NCBI GenBank assembly: GCA_017504945.1
Contig: JAFVQJ010000005.1
Location: 1-64,000 of the forward strand
Reading direction: 5' to 3'
Length of the DNA: 64,000 nucleotides
Source: Clostridia bacterium
GTDB lineage: Bacteria; Bacillota; Clostridia; Oscillospirales; RGIG5299
How positions within the stretch are numbered: position 1 is the stretch's first letter; each line of letters starts with the position of its first letter. Shown piece after piece: positions 34,182-39,684 of the stretch. The notes beneath the pieces are model-generated. The model was not told the DNA's origin, did not search any database, and saw nothing but the letters and a program-made list of their open reading frames with translations. The translations under genes and the position numbers were made by a program.

Positions 34182-34232
34182 AGTTATTGGTAATATTGAA
34201 CAAAAAAGGTACCTTTGAAAGGATATGTAGTC

Positions 34233-35318
34233 ATGTCTAACAGATTGTTCCAATCAATAGTTTTTCAGCTTAAAAATGCCGTTGACAGAGTTATCGGCGT
34301 TCTCGACGAGAACGGTACGATAATATCCTGTACCGAGCTTTCCTATATCGGCGAGCAGCGCTCCGGAATTATTGAGGAGCTTTCATACGGTATGGAGCAG
34401 CCCGTATTTGAAGGCTATACATATAAAGTAATAGGCATTTCCGCAAGACCCGACTACGCCGTTTTCGTTGAGGGTGAGGACAGATTTGCTTCTGAAATTG
34501 CCGGTATCCTTTCAATTTCTCTCGGCTCTGTTAAAGAGTTTTCAGACGAGAGATTTGACCGTTCAAGCTTTGTAAAGAACATTCTTCTCGATAATATTTT
34601 GCCCGGCGAGATAACTCTTAAGGCAAGAGAGCTTCATTTTGCCATCGAAATCGAGCGTTGCGTTTTGGTCATACGTCTTATGGACAAGAGCGACGTTTCA
34701 GCATACGACGTGCTTCAGAGCATCTTCCCCGACAAAAACAAGGACTTTATTATAAACATCAGCGAGACCGATATTGCGCTTGTTAAGGAAGTTAAAGTCG
34801 GCACCGAGCCCGAGGATCTTGAAAAGCTTGCAAGATCTATCGTTGACACTCTTCACAGTGAGTTCTACACCAAATCGGTCGTCGGTATCGGCACCGTCGT
34901 TAAGAACCTCAACGATCTTTCGCACTCCTTCAAGGAGGCGCAGGTCTCACTTGAGGTCGGCAAGGTATTCGACACCGATAAGAGCATAATCTCTTATAAC
35001 AACCTCGGTATCGGAAGACTTATTTATCAGCTTCCCATCACCCTTTGCGAAATGTATTTGAACGAGGTATTCAAGCGCGGTACCATCGATTCGCTTGACT
35101 ATGAAACGTTATACACCATTCAGAAATTCTTCGAGAACAGCCTGAACGTTTCGGAAACCTCAAGAAAGCTGTTCGTTCACAGAAACACGCTTGTTTACAG
35201 GCTCGAAAAGATACGCAGAATTACAGGTCTTGACTTGCGCGAATTTGACCACGCTATCGTTTTCAAGGTAGCGTTAATGGTCAAGAAATATCTTGAGTCC
35301 GACGTTGTTAAGTTTTAA
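34233..35318 (+). CDS. PucR/CdaR-type (sugar-diacid regulator-like) transcription factor
   Basis: A 361-residue regulator. The N-terminal third is sensor-like ('VIGVLDENGTIISCTELSYI'), the middle resembles the degenerate GGDEF-like CdaR domain ('SVVGIGTVVKNLNDLSHSFK', 'EAQVSLEVGKVF'), and the C-terminus is a PucR helix-turn-helix: 'FFENSLNVSETSRKLFVHRN' then 'TLVYRLEKIRRITGLDLREF'. Despite the family nickname it is unrelated to the c-di-AMP regulator CdaR. It precedes ftsEX by 88 bases across a terminator. Inducer unknown. SD GAAAGG sets the start. Confidence 0.88.
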   Translation: MSNRLFQSIVFQLKNAVDRVIGVLDENGTIISCTELSYIGEQRSGIIEELSYGMEQPVFEGYTYKVIGISARPDYAVFVEGEDRFASEIAGILSISLGSVKEFSDERFDRSSFVKNILLDNILPGEITLKARELHFAIEIERCVLVIRLMDKSDVSAYDVLQSIFPDKNKDFIINISETDIALVKEVKVGTEPEDLEKLARSIVDTLHSEFYTKSVVGIGTVVKNLNDLSHSFKEAQVSLEVGKVFDTDKSIISYNNLGIGRLIYQLPITLCEMYLNEVFKRGTIDSLDYETLYTIQKFFENSLNVSETSRKLFVHRNTLVYRLEKIRRITGLDLREFDHAIVFKVALMVKKYLESDVVKF

Positions 35319-35328
35319 CCGTCTTTTC

Positions 35329-35352
35329 AAAAGAGCCGTATCAGGCTCTTTT
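35329..35352 (+). terminator. Terminator before ftsE
   Basis: 9-bp stem AAAAGAGCC/GGCTCTTTT, 6-base loop. Confidence 0.85.
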
Positions 35353-35406
35353 GCTGTTTATTAAGCAAAAGTGATAGTTAATTGAAAAACCTTTGGGAGA
35401 GTTTCT

Positions 35407-36093
35407 ATGATAGAATTTTGCAACGTAGAAAAGCAATATTCCACCGGCGTTTTGGCGCTTTACGATATAAATTTGAAGATCAAGGACGGCGAATTCGTTT
35501 TCATCGTCGGTGCTTCGGGTGCGGGAAAGAGCACCCTTATTAAGCTACTGATGTGTGAGGAGCATCCCACATCGGGAAAGATCGTAATCGACGGAATTGA
35601 CCTTTCTCAGCTTCGTCACAAGGACATTCCGATATACAGACGTCAGCTCGGTATAGTTTTTCAGGATTTCAGACTCTTACCTAACAAGACCGTTTTTGAA
35701 AACGTTGCATTTGCAATGAGAGTTACGGGAAAATCCAACAAAGAGATCAGACAGAAGGTTCCCAAGCTTTTGAATATGGTCGATCTTGCCCATAGAGCAA
35801 AAAATTATCCCAATCAGCTCTCGGGCGGCGAAATGCAGCGCGTTGCCTTGGCAAGAGCGCTTGCAAACAACCCCAAGGTAATTATTGCCGACGAGCCTAC
35901 CGGTAACATCGACCCTTCCCTTTCGCATGAGATCATGAGCTTGCTCGCGGGCATCAGTAAAAGAGGCAATATAACCGTTATCGTCGTTACGCACGAAAAG
36001 GAGCTTGTTGATAAGTTTAACAAGCGCGTCGTTTATATCAGCGACGGTACCGTTGCCGCCGATCACGAAGGAGGCTACAGCGATGCGCAATAA
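35407..36093 (+). CDS. ftsE: Cell division ATPase FtsE
   Basis: A 228-residue ABC ATPase. Walker A 'GASGAGKSTLIKLL', Q-loop 'IVFQDFRLLPNKTVFENVAF' (the FtsE hallmark), signature 'LSGGEMQRVALARAL', Walker B 'VIIADEPTGNIDP', H-loop 'VVTHEKELVDKF'. With FtsX it transmits ATP hydrolysis through the membrane to switch on a wall hydrolase at the septum. The end overlaps ftsX by 11 bases. Confidence 0.97.
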   Translation: MIEFCNVEKQYSTGVLALYDINLKIKDGEFVFIVGASGAGKSTLIKLLMCEEHPTSGKIVIDGIDLSQLRHKDIPIYRRQLGIVFQDFRLLPNKTVFENVAFAMRVTGKSNKEIRQKVPKLLNMVDLAHRAKNYPNQLSGGEMQRVALARALANNPKVIIADEPTGNIDPSLSHEIMSLLAGISKRGNITVIVVTHEKELVDKFNKRVVYISDGTVAADHEGGYSDAQ

Positions 36094-36979
36094 CTACGGT
36101 TCTTCCAATTTTTTGAGCGACGCCTTTGAGAATATTCGCTTAAACAAGCTGCTTAGCACCGCTACCGTTTTTATTTTCGTTGCCTGCTTTATCGTCACCA
36201 CCTCTTTCAGTATGCTTATTCTGAACATTAACAGGCTTGTTGACGAGATCGCGAACAACAACGAAATAGTTCTTTTCCTTGATGACGACAGCGAGGAAAC
36301 GCTTGACAATATTAACGAGATAATTGCAAGTAATTCCTTTATTGACCGTAATAATTGCCAATATATCACGGCTGACGAGGGATTGAAAAATCTTATAGAG
36401 GCACTCGGTCCCGAGTATTCACAGCTTTACGATGAGTTTAAGAACGATAATCCCATACGTGCTTCCTACGAGATAAAGCTTAACGATATAAGCTACACCG
36501 ATGATATTGCTTTGCTCTTTCGCAATATCGACGGCGTCGGTGAGGTAAGAACTCAACAGATTCGTATTGACGAGTTTATAAACATTAAAAACGTTATTTC
36601 GCTTTTGTCGCTCTGGCTTATCATCATTTTGATAATCGTTTCGATATTTATTATTTCAAATACTATCAAAATGACCATTTACGCCAGAAAGACCGAAATA
36701 AATATAATGAAATTCGTCGGTGCGACCGATGCATTTATTCGTATTCCTTATATTATAGAGGGTATTATTTTGGGGCTTATTGCCTCTGTAGTTGCCTTCT
36801 TTGCACAGTGGCTGATATACGAAACTCTTATTCTCAACGGTCTTTCAAAGCTCGCTGTATTTACTCCCTACGATTTTGCATACTTTGCACCCGCAATGAT
36901 CATTTTATACGTAATTGCCGCAGTTTTGTTCGGCGTTTTCGGAAGTCTTCTCCCCATGAGGAAATATCTAAACGTTTAA
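36083..36979 (+). CDS. ftsX: Cell division permease FtsX
   Basis: A 298-residue membrane protein with the FtsX layout: first helix (about 22-44, 'STATVFIFVACFIVTTSFSM'), an extracellular domain (50-165; 'ITADEGLKNLIEAL'), then three helices ending 'AVLFGVFGSLLPMRKYLNV'. The cytoplasmic loop 'ARKTEINIMKFVGATDAFIR' is the classic coupling segment. Start at 36083 from GAAGGAGG 9 bases upstream, inside ftsE. Confidence 0.96.
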   Translation: MRNNYGSSNFLSDAFENIRLNKLLSTATVFIFVACFIVTTSFSMLILNINRLVDEIANNNEIVLFLDDDSEETLDNINEIIASNSFIDRNNCQYITADEGLKNLIEALGPEYSQLYDEFKNDNPIRASYEIKLNDISYTDDIALLFRNIDGVGEVRTQQIRIDEFINIKNVISLLSLWLIIILIIVSIFIISNTIKMTIYARKTEINIMKFVGATDAFIRIPYIIEGIILGLIASVVAFFAQWLIYETLILNGLSKLAVFTPYDFAYFAPAMIILYVIAAVLFGVFGSLLPMRKYLNV

Positions 36980-36997: not shown

Positions 36998-38332
36998 ATG
37001 AAGAAACGATTATTTATACTCGTTATTGTAACCGTGCTCTTATCTACCGTTCTTACACCCTTTACCGCTTATGCGGTCACCGAAGAGGAGCTTCAGCAGC
37101 AGATAGCCGAAAAGGATAACGCAATGAAGAAGCTCCGCGCAAGCATTGAGACCTTGAACGCCGAGTTAAAGGACGCCAAGGCTGAAAGCGCGGCTTTAAA
37201 AAGCGATATTGATAATCTAAAGAAGGATATTGCCGAATTAAACAAACTTATTGAGCCGGCGGAGGAAAAAATTACCGAGCTTCAGGCAACGATAACCGTC
37301 CTTGAAGGTAAGATATCCGAATATAACGACAAAAAGACCGAGCTTGAACAACAGATAAGCGACTGTGAGGATGCTATAAACAACGCCGAAGGCACATACA
37401 ACGACAAGCGTGAAATGCTCAAGATGATAATGCGAACGGCTTATGAAAACGGTTTTCACGAATCGGTAAGCGGCATTTCGATATTGCTCGATGCAAACTC
37501 ACTTTCCGACTACGTTGAGAAGATGGAGGCAGTTGACAAGATCGTTGACGCTACCAAAAGCTCGATGAGTGAGTATTTGAACGCGATAAACGATAAAACA
37601 AAATATAAAGAAACGCTTGAAGCTTCCAAGACCGAGCTTTCGGTGCTTTTGGATTCACTCGAAGCCGATACGAAGAGCTACAACGATACTCTTGCAACGG
37701 TTGAAAGCGAAAGAGATAAGCTCGAGGACAACAAAAACAGCCTGTTAAAATCGCAAAACGAGCTTAACAAAAAGCTCTCCGACAGCCAGGATCTTGAGGA
37801 CAGTATAAACGATAAGCTTGCAACTCAAAAGGCGCAGCTTACGAAATATCAAAAAGAGATGGCACAGCTCGAAAAAGAGCTTGAGGATATACAGAGCGTC
37901 AATACCACCGGTGCGGAAAAGTATTTTCTGTGGCCGCTTTCAAAGAAATACACTATCACCTCTTATTACGACGATCCCGAATATTACGAGGTCTTCGGCG
38001 TTCACCACTATGCAATCGACGTTGGCGGATATAAAATATCCGGCACGCCTATTTACGCAACAAAGAGCGGAACGGTTACCAAGTCGGCTTATCAGGCCGG
38101 AGGCGCCGGCAACTACGTTATTCTTGACCACGGAAACGGCGAGCTCTCTTATTACTATCATATGACCGAACGTTCTGTTAAAAAGGGCGATACCGTTAAG
38201 CAGGGTCAGACTATCGGTACGGTAGGTACAACGGGTAATTCAACAGGACCGCATCTTCATTTTGCAATTAAAATCAACGGAAAATGGGTTGATCCCCTGC
38301 CCCTTGTAAAGGACAGCCGTCCGAGCAAGTGA
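36998..38332 (+). CDS. Murein hydrolase activator/M23 endopeptidase (EnvC/PcsB-like)
   Basis: A 444-residue exported protein. Signal peptide (1-27), a long coiled coil (about 28-300, heptad-rich 'ELQQQIAEKDNAMKKLRASI'), then a LytM/M23 domain: 'GVHHYAIDVGG' carries the HxxxD zinc motif and 'STGPHLHFAIKING' the HxH motif, so the catalytic metal site looks intact. It is the expected FtsEX-controlled hydrolase or activator at division sites. 18 bases after ftsX, SD GAAAGGA. Confidence 0.94.
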   Translation: MKKRLFILVIVTVLLSTVLTPFTAYAVTEEELQQQIAEKDNAMKKLRASIETLNAELKDAKAESAALKSDIDNLKKDIAELNKLIEPAEEKITELQATITVLEGKISEYNDKKTELEQQISDCEDAINNAEGTYNDKREMLKMIMRTAYENGFHESVSGISILLDANSLSDYVEKMEAVDKIVDATKSSMSEYLNAINDKTKYKETLEASKTELSVLLDSLEADTKSYNDTLATVESERDKLEDNKNSLLKSQNELNKKLSDSQDLEDSINDKLATQKAQLTKYQKEMAQLEKELEDIQSVNTTGAEKYFLWPLSKKYTITSYYDDPEYYEVFGVHHYAIDVGGYKISGTPIYATKSGTVTKSAYQAGGAGNYVILDHGNGELSYYYHMTERSVKKGDTVKQGQTIGTVGTTGNSTGPHLHFAIKINGKWVDPLPLVKDSRPSK

Positions 38333-38354: not shown

Positions 38355-39647
38355 ATGAAAAATACTTTTTTGAGAATAAGCACCGTAGTTTTCGTGGCTA
38401 TAATTTCGGCTTTTCTCGGACTTATTATCTCTTACAATTATCTTAACTCCAAATTTATTTCAACGGGAAATAATATCCAGAACAATCAGGAGTTTATTAC
38501 AAAGATCCTGAAGGTCGATGAACTGATGAAAAACAGATTTTTCGGTTCTTTGACCGATGCCACCGTTATTGACGGTATGATAGACGGTTATATCAAATCG
38601 ACGGGCGATTTATTCGCAAGCTATATTCATAAGTCTGATTACAAGAATTACCTCAAATATGCGACCGACGGCACCGTTAACACCGTTGGAATAATCGCTT
38701 CTCCCGACAAGGACGGAAATCTTTCGGTAAAAACGGTTTTAAGCGGTTCTCCCGCTTACAAGGCAAAGCTTCAGACGGGCGACGTTATTACCGAGATAAA
38801 CGGTTCCTCCGTAAATAAGATGAGCTATCTTGCCGCGCTCGGAAAGCTTGTGCTTTCTGCCGACGCCACCGTTGATATCACTTGGCTGCGTAACGGTATG
38901 TCCTTCAGCGCAACTCTTGAATTCAATTCGGATTACAGCGGAAAATCGGTTGTTTACGGAATATTTTCAAGCGAAAACAGCAATTTTGTAAATGCTGACA
39001 GCTCCGAGGATATAAAAAGAGTTTTATACGTTTCAATAAAATATTTCGATGCAACCACACCCGATATGCTCTTAGAAATAGTTTCAAAGGAAAGCGTTGC
39101 GGGGCTTCCGATAATTATTGACCTTAGAAACAATTTCGGCGGTGATATCGACAGTCTGCAAAAAAGCGCCGATATTTTCGTCCCTGCGGGAATACTCTTT
39201 AACGTGGTTACAACGGCAGAGCCTGCCAACGACGATAACAGCACTCCTTATTATTCCGATCAGAATGAGGTCTCGGTTCCTATCGCTGTATTGGTCAACG
39301 AAAACACTGCCAAGGAAGCAGAGGTCTTTGCCCTTATTATTAAAGAATATGAAAAAGGAAGCATTATCGGCACGAAGACCGCAGGTATCGCTTCGATTCA
39401 GTCTTTAATTGACCTCGGCGACGAAACCGCTCTTTGCATTACCACACGCTGCTATTCTCTTCCCAAGAACGGCAGCTTTAGCGAAGCGGGTATTACCCCA
39501 ACCTACGAGGTCGCGTCATCAAGTGTAAACTTCGAGAAGCTTGCAACGAAGGACGATGCCCAGCTTCTCGCCGCACTTCTGAATTTCGGGCTTAAATATG
39601 AGGAGCAGCCCGCTGATCCCAACCTACCAGAAGTTCCCACAACGTAA
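38355..39647 (+). CDS. S41 C-terminal-processing-protease-like protein, catalytic residues lost
   Basis: A 430-residue protein with an N-terminal membrane helix, a PDZ domain ('VLSGSPAYKAKLQTGDVITE' and 'INGSSVNKM') and a peptidase S41 domain ('IIIDLRNNFGGDIDSLQKSA', 'VLVNENTAKEAEVFAL', 'IIGTKTAGIASIQSLIDLGD', 'GITPTYEV'). Aligned with CtpA/Prc, the catalytic serine position of SASASE is Lys320 and the catalytic lysine of TFGKG is Ile345, 25 residues apart as in active enzymes. It is therefore predicted to be inactive and to act by binding. It follows ftsE-ftsX-M23, where B. subtilis has active CtpB. Confidence 0.88.
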   Translation: MKNTFLRISTVVFVAIISAFLGLIISYNYLNSKFISTGNNIQNNQEFITKILKVDELMKNRFFGSLTDATVIDGMIDGYIKSTGDLFASYIHKSDYKNYLKYATDGTVNTVGIIASPDKDGNLSVKTVLSGSPAYKAKLQTGDVITEINGSSVNKMSYLAALGKLVLSADATVDITWLRNGMSFSATLEFNSDYSGKSVVYGIFSSENSNFVNADSSEDIKRVLYVSIKYFDATTPDMLLEIVSKESVAGLPIIIDLRNNFGGDIDSLQKSADIFVPAGILFNVVTTAEPANDDNSTPYYSDQNEVSVPIAVLVNENTAKEAEVFALIIKEYEKGSIIGTKTAGIASIQSLIDLGDETALCITTRCYSLPKNGSFSEAGITPTYEVASSSVNFEKLATKDDAQLLAALLNFGLKYEEQPADPNLPEVPTT

Positions 39648-39650
39648 ATT

Positions 39651-39684
39651 AAGATCCCGTAATACTCATGTATTACGGGATCTT
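39651..39684. terminator. Terminator after the ftsEX cluster
   Basis: 15-bp stem AAGATCCCGTAATAC/GTATTACGGGATCTT, TCAT loop, then TT. Confidence 0.93.

Follow-up and report, generated by a model that had tools for sequence, protein, structure and literature searches.

An S41/PDZ protein encoded in an FtsEX operon of a Clostridia bacterium lacks the catalytic serine and lysine of C-terminal processing proteases and is a putative non-cleaving partner of the adjacent M23 hydrolase

The last gene of an FtsEX operon in a Clostridia bacterium encodes an S41/PDZ protein of the C-terminal processing protease (CTP) type that appears to have lost catalysis. CTPs are known as proteases that restrain cell-wall hydrolases. 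We consider it fairly probable that this pseudo-CTP has been retained as a putative non-cleaving partner that binds or regulates the FtsEX-linked M23 hydrolase encoded beside it. The DNA analysed, here called the window, comprises 64,000 nucleotides (positions 1 to 64,000, forward strand) of contig JAFVQJ010000005.1 from assembly GCA_017504945.1; all features described below lie on its plus strand.

The reading frame, at 38355-39647, is intact and encodes 430 residues; it starts 22 bp past the stop codon of the M23 gene, and its ATG is preceded by a good ribosome-binding site, AAAGGA. An earlier note on this DNA had called the membrane anchor and PDZ domain intact, and both descriptions hold. 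The anchor, at about residues 7-29 (38373-38441), is evident by inspection of the N-terminus, MKNTFLRISTVVFVAIISAFLGLIISYNYLNSK, and the PDZ domain, at residues 118-188 (38706-38918), lies N-terminal to the protease domain and is recognised by PF13180, PF00595 and PF17820, each above its cut-off. The S41 domain follows at residues 223-386 (39021-39512), with a Peptidase_S41 (PF03572) match of 96.5 bits against a Pfam cut-off of 24, and the protein as a whole falls below the threshold of the curated CTP model TIGR00225 (145.1 bits, cut-off 218.6). The carboxylate loop of the PDZ domain is weakened, reading TVGII compared with the usual GIG[IV], both in the window's family, f1, and in family f11, and binding of C-terminal peptides may also be altered. 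A structure prediction computed from a two-row alignment gave a pLDDT of 39.8, too low for the model to be used.

Residues 58-391 align to CtpA with an E-value of 4e-26 (phmmer against the PDB). Alignment to solved CTPs, together with a check of the triad across the order, places Lys320 (codon AAG, 39312-39314) at the catalytic serine site and Ile345 (ATC, 39387-39389) at the catalytic lysine site, just as first proposed, and the third triad residue, Gln349 (CAG, 39399-39401), is retained. The 25/29 spacing of residues 320, 345 and 349 is identical to that of the triads of CtpA (302/327/331) and CtpB (309/334/338) (PMC8764530). One matched PDB chain has alanine at all three triad positions, opposite K320, I345 and Q349, which fits a triple mutant of H. 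pylori CtpA, S300A/K325A/Q329A (PMC12749690). Could another alignment bring back the dyad, as the earlier note had allowed? The two sites are bounded by VNENTA-K-EAEVF and IGTKTAG-I-ASIQ, both gap-free in the alignment, which rules this out. Sequencing error was also rejected: there is no frameshift, and either substitution requires multi-base changes from a serine or lysine codon, making error unlikely, and convergent loss is found elsewhere. Loss of catalysis in the window protein is strongly supported, as judged from these positions.

The S41/PDZ gene is the final gene of a compact ftsE-ftsX-M23-S41 unit, since a strong terminator follows it and a hairpin separates ftsE from the PucR-type gene upstream. 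The unit opens with ftsE (35407-36093; TIGR02673, 285.6 bits, cut-off 264.85) and continues with ftsX (36083-36979; PF18075 FtsX_ECD and PF02687; NF038347 at 216.6 bits, slightly below its cut-off of 225) and a gene for a secreted murein hydrolase that combines a coiled coil with an M23 (LytM) domain (36998-38332; PF01551, 105.6 bits; CC_PcsB, 32.5 bits), so that the proposed adjacency to FtsEX and an M23 protein is borne out by Pfam and TIGR domain matches. A motif check found the M23 motif, H337-D341 and H419-H421, intact. The terminator hairpin at the end of the operon (39651-39684) has a 15-bp stem and a T-rich tail (-24.8 kcal/mol, z -8.0), and the terminator-like hairpin at 35328-35353 lies between ftsE and the PucR-type regulator (34215-35318; PF13556 HTH_30 and PF17853), whose synteny is conserved. 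This gene order, ftsE-ftsX-M23-S41 preceded by PucR, has been conserved throughout the order and the class.

Some variation around this arrangement was also seen. Directly 5' of ftsE, the PucR-type regulator recurs in most of the order's genomes (for example at loci L034, L054, L175 and L205) and in many of the other orders sampled, a very stable, unexplained neighbour of the FtsEX operon. Two loci of family f17 (L062 and L106) have the order ftsE-ftsX-S41-M23, and at five loci of family f21 (L221, L224, L230, L234 and L236) long S41 genes come straight after PucR, with no FtsEX or M23 gene recognised between.

The earlier note held that the pseudoprotease replaces CtpB. This part of its account does not stand: the window gene is the syntenic orthologue of an active CTP in the same operon of other orders, and it therefore lost catalysis in place, with no replacement. 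In other orders of the class, both serine and lysine are kept in all 70 of the S41 proteins sampled, from a control list ranked by S41 score and thus favouring active members, and the S41 gene lies downstream of FtsX in 33 of the 40 loci fetched with long flanks. The ancestral S41 protein of the FtsEX operon was most likely an active CTP, to judge from these sequences.

Loss of the serine is wider than first suggested, and is convergent within one order. Among 106 syntenic S41 proteins of the order, 35 lack the serine when the three triad positions are checked, and these are spread over eight families; because proteins were ranked for sampling by their similarity to that of the window, with enrichment for family f24, the fraction is not a prevalence. 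The triad is K/I/Q in the window's family f1 and G/K/Q in the single genome of f11. In f10, which carries tandem copies, the first copy has Asp or Gly paired with K, I, M or V, and the second is S/K/Q. Family f24 lacks the serine in 19 of 21 members, with Gly paired with Y, H, N, A, V or E; single members of f19, f20 and f26 are each G/K/Q, and a single member of f4, L/K/Q by one substitution, is treated cautiously. S/K/Q is kept in CTP-like proteins of f14 and of additional f21 members. Two loci of the f24 genus g90 (L074 and L076) have an intact S/K/Q S41 gene after M23 that groups with the second copies of f10 and not with the remaining f24 proteins, possibly through replacement by transfer.

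How often was the serine lost? An S41 tree computed without the active-site columns requires at least seven changes at the serine site, an independent tree of FtsE, FtsX and PucR requires at least five, and a single clade of Ser-less proteins is rejected (p-AU 5.3e-6). The FtsE, FtsX and PucR tree joins f1 and f11 (support 96) and places both with f10 (98), and the window gene falls among Ser-less copies, those of f11 and f10. The S41 branch of the window protein is long, at 1.72 changes per site, and long-branch attraction between it and f11 was checked by omitting each in turn; alone, the window protein joins the Ser-less copies of f10 weakly (58%), and f11 alone joins them well (96). The simplest history has one loss of serine before f1, f10 and f11 split, followed by loss of lysine in f1 and part of f10, with separate serine losses in f24, f19, f20 and f26. 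The existence of G/K/Q and D/K/Q members suggests that the serine went first and the lysine afterwards.

Whether the double substitution is clade-wide, which the earlier note had raised, has a divided answer. The serine is absent from a syntenic copy in the nearest families, f11 and f10. The exact Lys/Ile pair is not shown to be clade-wide, because the sole same-genus orthologue, which shares the operon and 53% identity, lies on a contig that ends before the S41 domain. A scan of genome contigs for close relatives returned only this truncated orthologue, from MAG Tb.RUG.148, and the only other S41 match in that genome is remote and does not resemble a CTP. The second, intact CTP that the earlier note had suggested looking for did not appear: a PF03572 search of the assembled window genome (1.38 Mb, 86% complete) found no other S41 protein. 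Beyond this genus, in 18 f24 genomes that are 98-100% complete, a Ser-less protein is the sole S41, which suggests that CTP proteolysis is dispensable in these genomes, where no catalytic S41 is recognised.

The Ser-less genes nevertheless remain intact, and purifying selection acts on them with about the strength seen for their M23 neighbours. Reading frames are open in the sampled Ser-less copies, which are spread over many genera, and close pairs in f24 and f10 give dN/dS values of about 0.03-0.3, similar to those of M23, FtsX and active S41, although dS is often saturated and the ratios are rough. For the window's genus, pN/pS is 0.38 for S41, over its N-terminal 209 codons only, and 0.40 for M23. 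The two halves of the protein, split at fixed fractions of the alignment, are constrained differently in active and Ser-less copies. The N-terminal/PDZ half is the faster of the two in most active copies, by up to about five times, and in the active copies of f10 the ratio of dN in the S41 half to that in the N-terminal/PDZ half is 0.45-0.72, the S41 half being slower; in Ser-less copies the halves keep a nearly equal pace, with ratios of 0.8-1.3. The catalytic constraint is gone from the Ser-less copies, and the S41 domain is still constrained.

Why should a CTP that has lost cleavage be kept? In P. aeruginosa, active CtpA degrades M23 hydrolases (PMC8764530), among them MepM, and the serine-dead mutant CtpA-S302A still captures this M23 peptidase (PMC6050968). 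Outside f10, nearly every Ser-less S41 protein has beside it an M23 protein with the H-D-H-H motif intact, and this, taken with capture by CtpA-S302A, leads us to expect binding without cutting; loss of the serine at least five times in related bacteria likewise suggests that binding, not cutting, is the present role. On this reading an active CTP linked to FtsEX gave rise, at its own locus, to a membrane-anchored, extracytoplasmic protein that has lost cleavage but whose fold and PDZ domain are held by selection, and this protein would most likely still bind the ligands of its active ancestor. CTP substrates include proteins other than M23 enzymes. The first candidate ligand would be the M23 hydrolase from the same operon, by way of its C-terminus, with other FtsEX partners also eligible, and the hydrolase might be tethered, sequestered or positioned at FtsEX rather than destroyed, with a possible link to FtsEX activity. 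Much more tentatively, the order may have repeatedly turned its FtsEX-linked CTP from a hydrolase-destroying protease into a putative non-catalytic subunit of FtsEX-M23, which would cage or present the hydrolase as a safety control on wall cutting in dividing cells, in place of proteolysis.

The M23 gene itself varies at a few loci. Beside the Ser-less S41 genes of two f24 loci (L139 and L093, in genomes G321 and G392), the first zinc-binding His of M23 is replaced by Thr, and both proteins may be inactive there, judging by these residues. At six f10 loci (L042, L047, L057, L105, L107 and L108) a Ser-less S41 gene has an intact one before or after it in a single unit, and M23 reads HLD where HLH is usual, so that this operon shows a further recurrent change.

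Retention of the PDZ domain could also mean that the pseudo-CTP is a sensor of C-terminal peptides that signals to FtsEX or other envelope proteins, with no direct control of M23. The relative rates fit such a role, the N-terminal/PDZ half being no faster than the S41 half in Ser-less copies and faster in most active ones. However, f1 and f11 have a degraded PDZ loop, and the S41 gene lies directly behind M23 in nearly all operons, and we regard this explanation as unlikely, if still worth weighing. We see a poorer case for hetero-oligomers in which the pseudo-CTP regulates an active CTP by poisoning or assembly of its subunits. CTPs are hexamers (PMC8764530) and f10 has Ser-less and intact copies in tandem, but neither the window genome nor the 18 f24 genomes hold another S41 protein with which such oligomers could form. 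Equally doubtful, and already disfavoured, is a relic under relaxed selection that is heading for loss. Seven f24 genomes are without any detected S41 (G043, G117, G144, G167, G178, G271 and G357) and the branch of the window protein is long, but the open frames, low dN/dS and persistence over many genera speak against decay, as does the N-terminal half of the f1 S41 protein, which is constrained as much as M23. An enzyme of altered chemistry, with Lys320 or another residue as the catalytic group, is very improbable: a lysine is an unusual residue at the nucleophile site and Gln349 has been retained, but the position varies by lineage between Gly, Asp, Lys and Leu, and we know of no S41 enzyme that uses any of these as its nucleophile.

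We conclude that a non-cleaving CTP that binds or regulates the FtsEX-linked M23 hydrolase is the likely explanation. The finding extends past a single genome, to an order in which the CTP linked to FtsEX has lost catalysis convergently, and with at least five losses of the nucleophile in which the gene, the PDZ domain and the M23 neighbour have been kept, a cleavage-independent binding role for CTPs becomes directly testable. In a limited search of the open-access literature we found no description of natural bacterial S41 pseudoproteases.

The window protein has in common with CtpB and CtpA of B. subtilis, P. aeruginosa and H. pylori the anchor, the PDZ domain, the S41 fold, the triad glutamine and its spacing, and its gene sits where the other orders of the class have an S41 gene in the operon; it differs from them in lacking the catalytic serine and lysine and in its score (145 bits) below the TIGR00225 threshold of 218.6. 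Another S41-like fold without protease function is that of IRBP, or retinol-binding protein 3, which uses S41-fold modules for binding and which we take to be the protein in PDB entry 9frx, found among the phmmer matches of the window protein. IRBP, however, is eukaryotic, serves ligand transport and has no FtsEX context. Also comparable is the engineered P. aeruginosa CtpA-S302A (PMC6050968), a CTP without its nucleophile that captures MepM, although there the loss is engineered and the protein works with a partner, LbcA, whereas in the window the loss is natural and the lysine has gone too. Lastly, EnvC and DipM are described as catalytically dead proteins of protease fold that regulate murein hydrolases in division (DipM, PMC10336132; EnvC, PMC11870482). 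Their fold is that of M23, whereas in the window the M23 motif is intact and it is the S41 protein that is dead; the role proposed here, if true, would parallel that of these dead-enzyme regulators in another protein fold.
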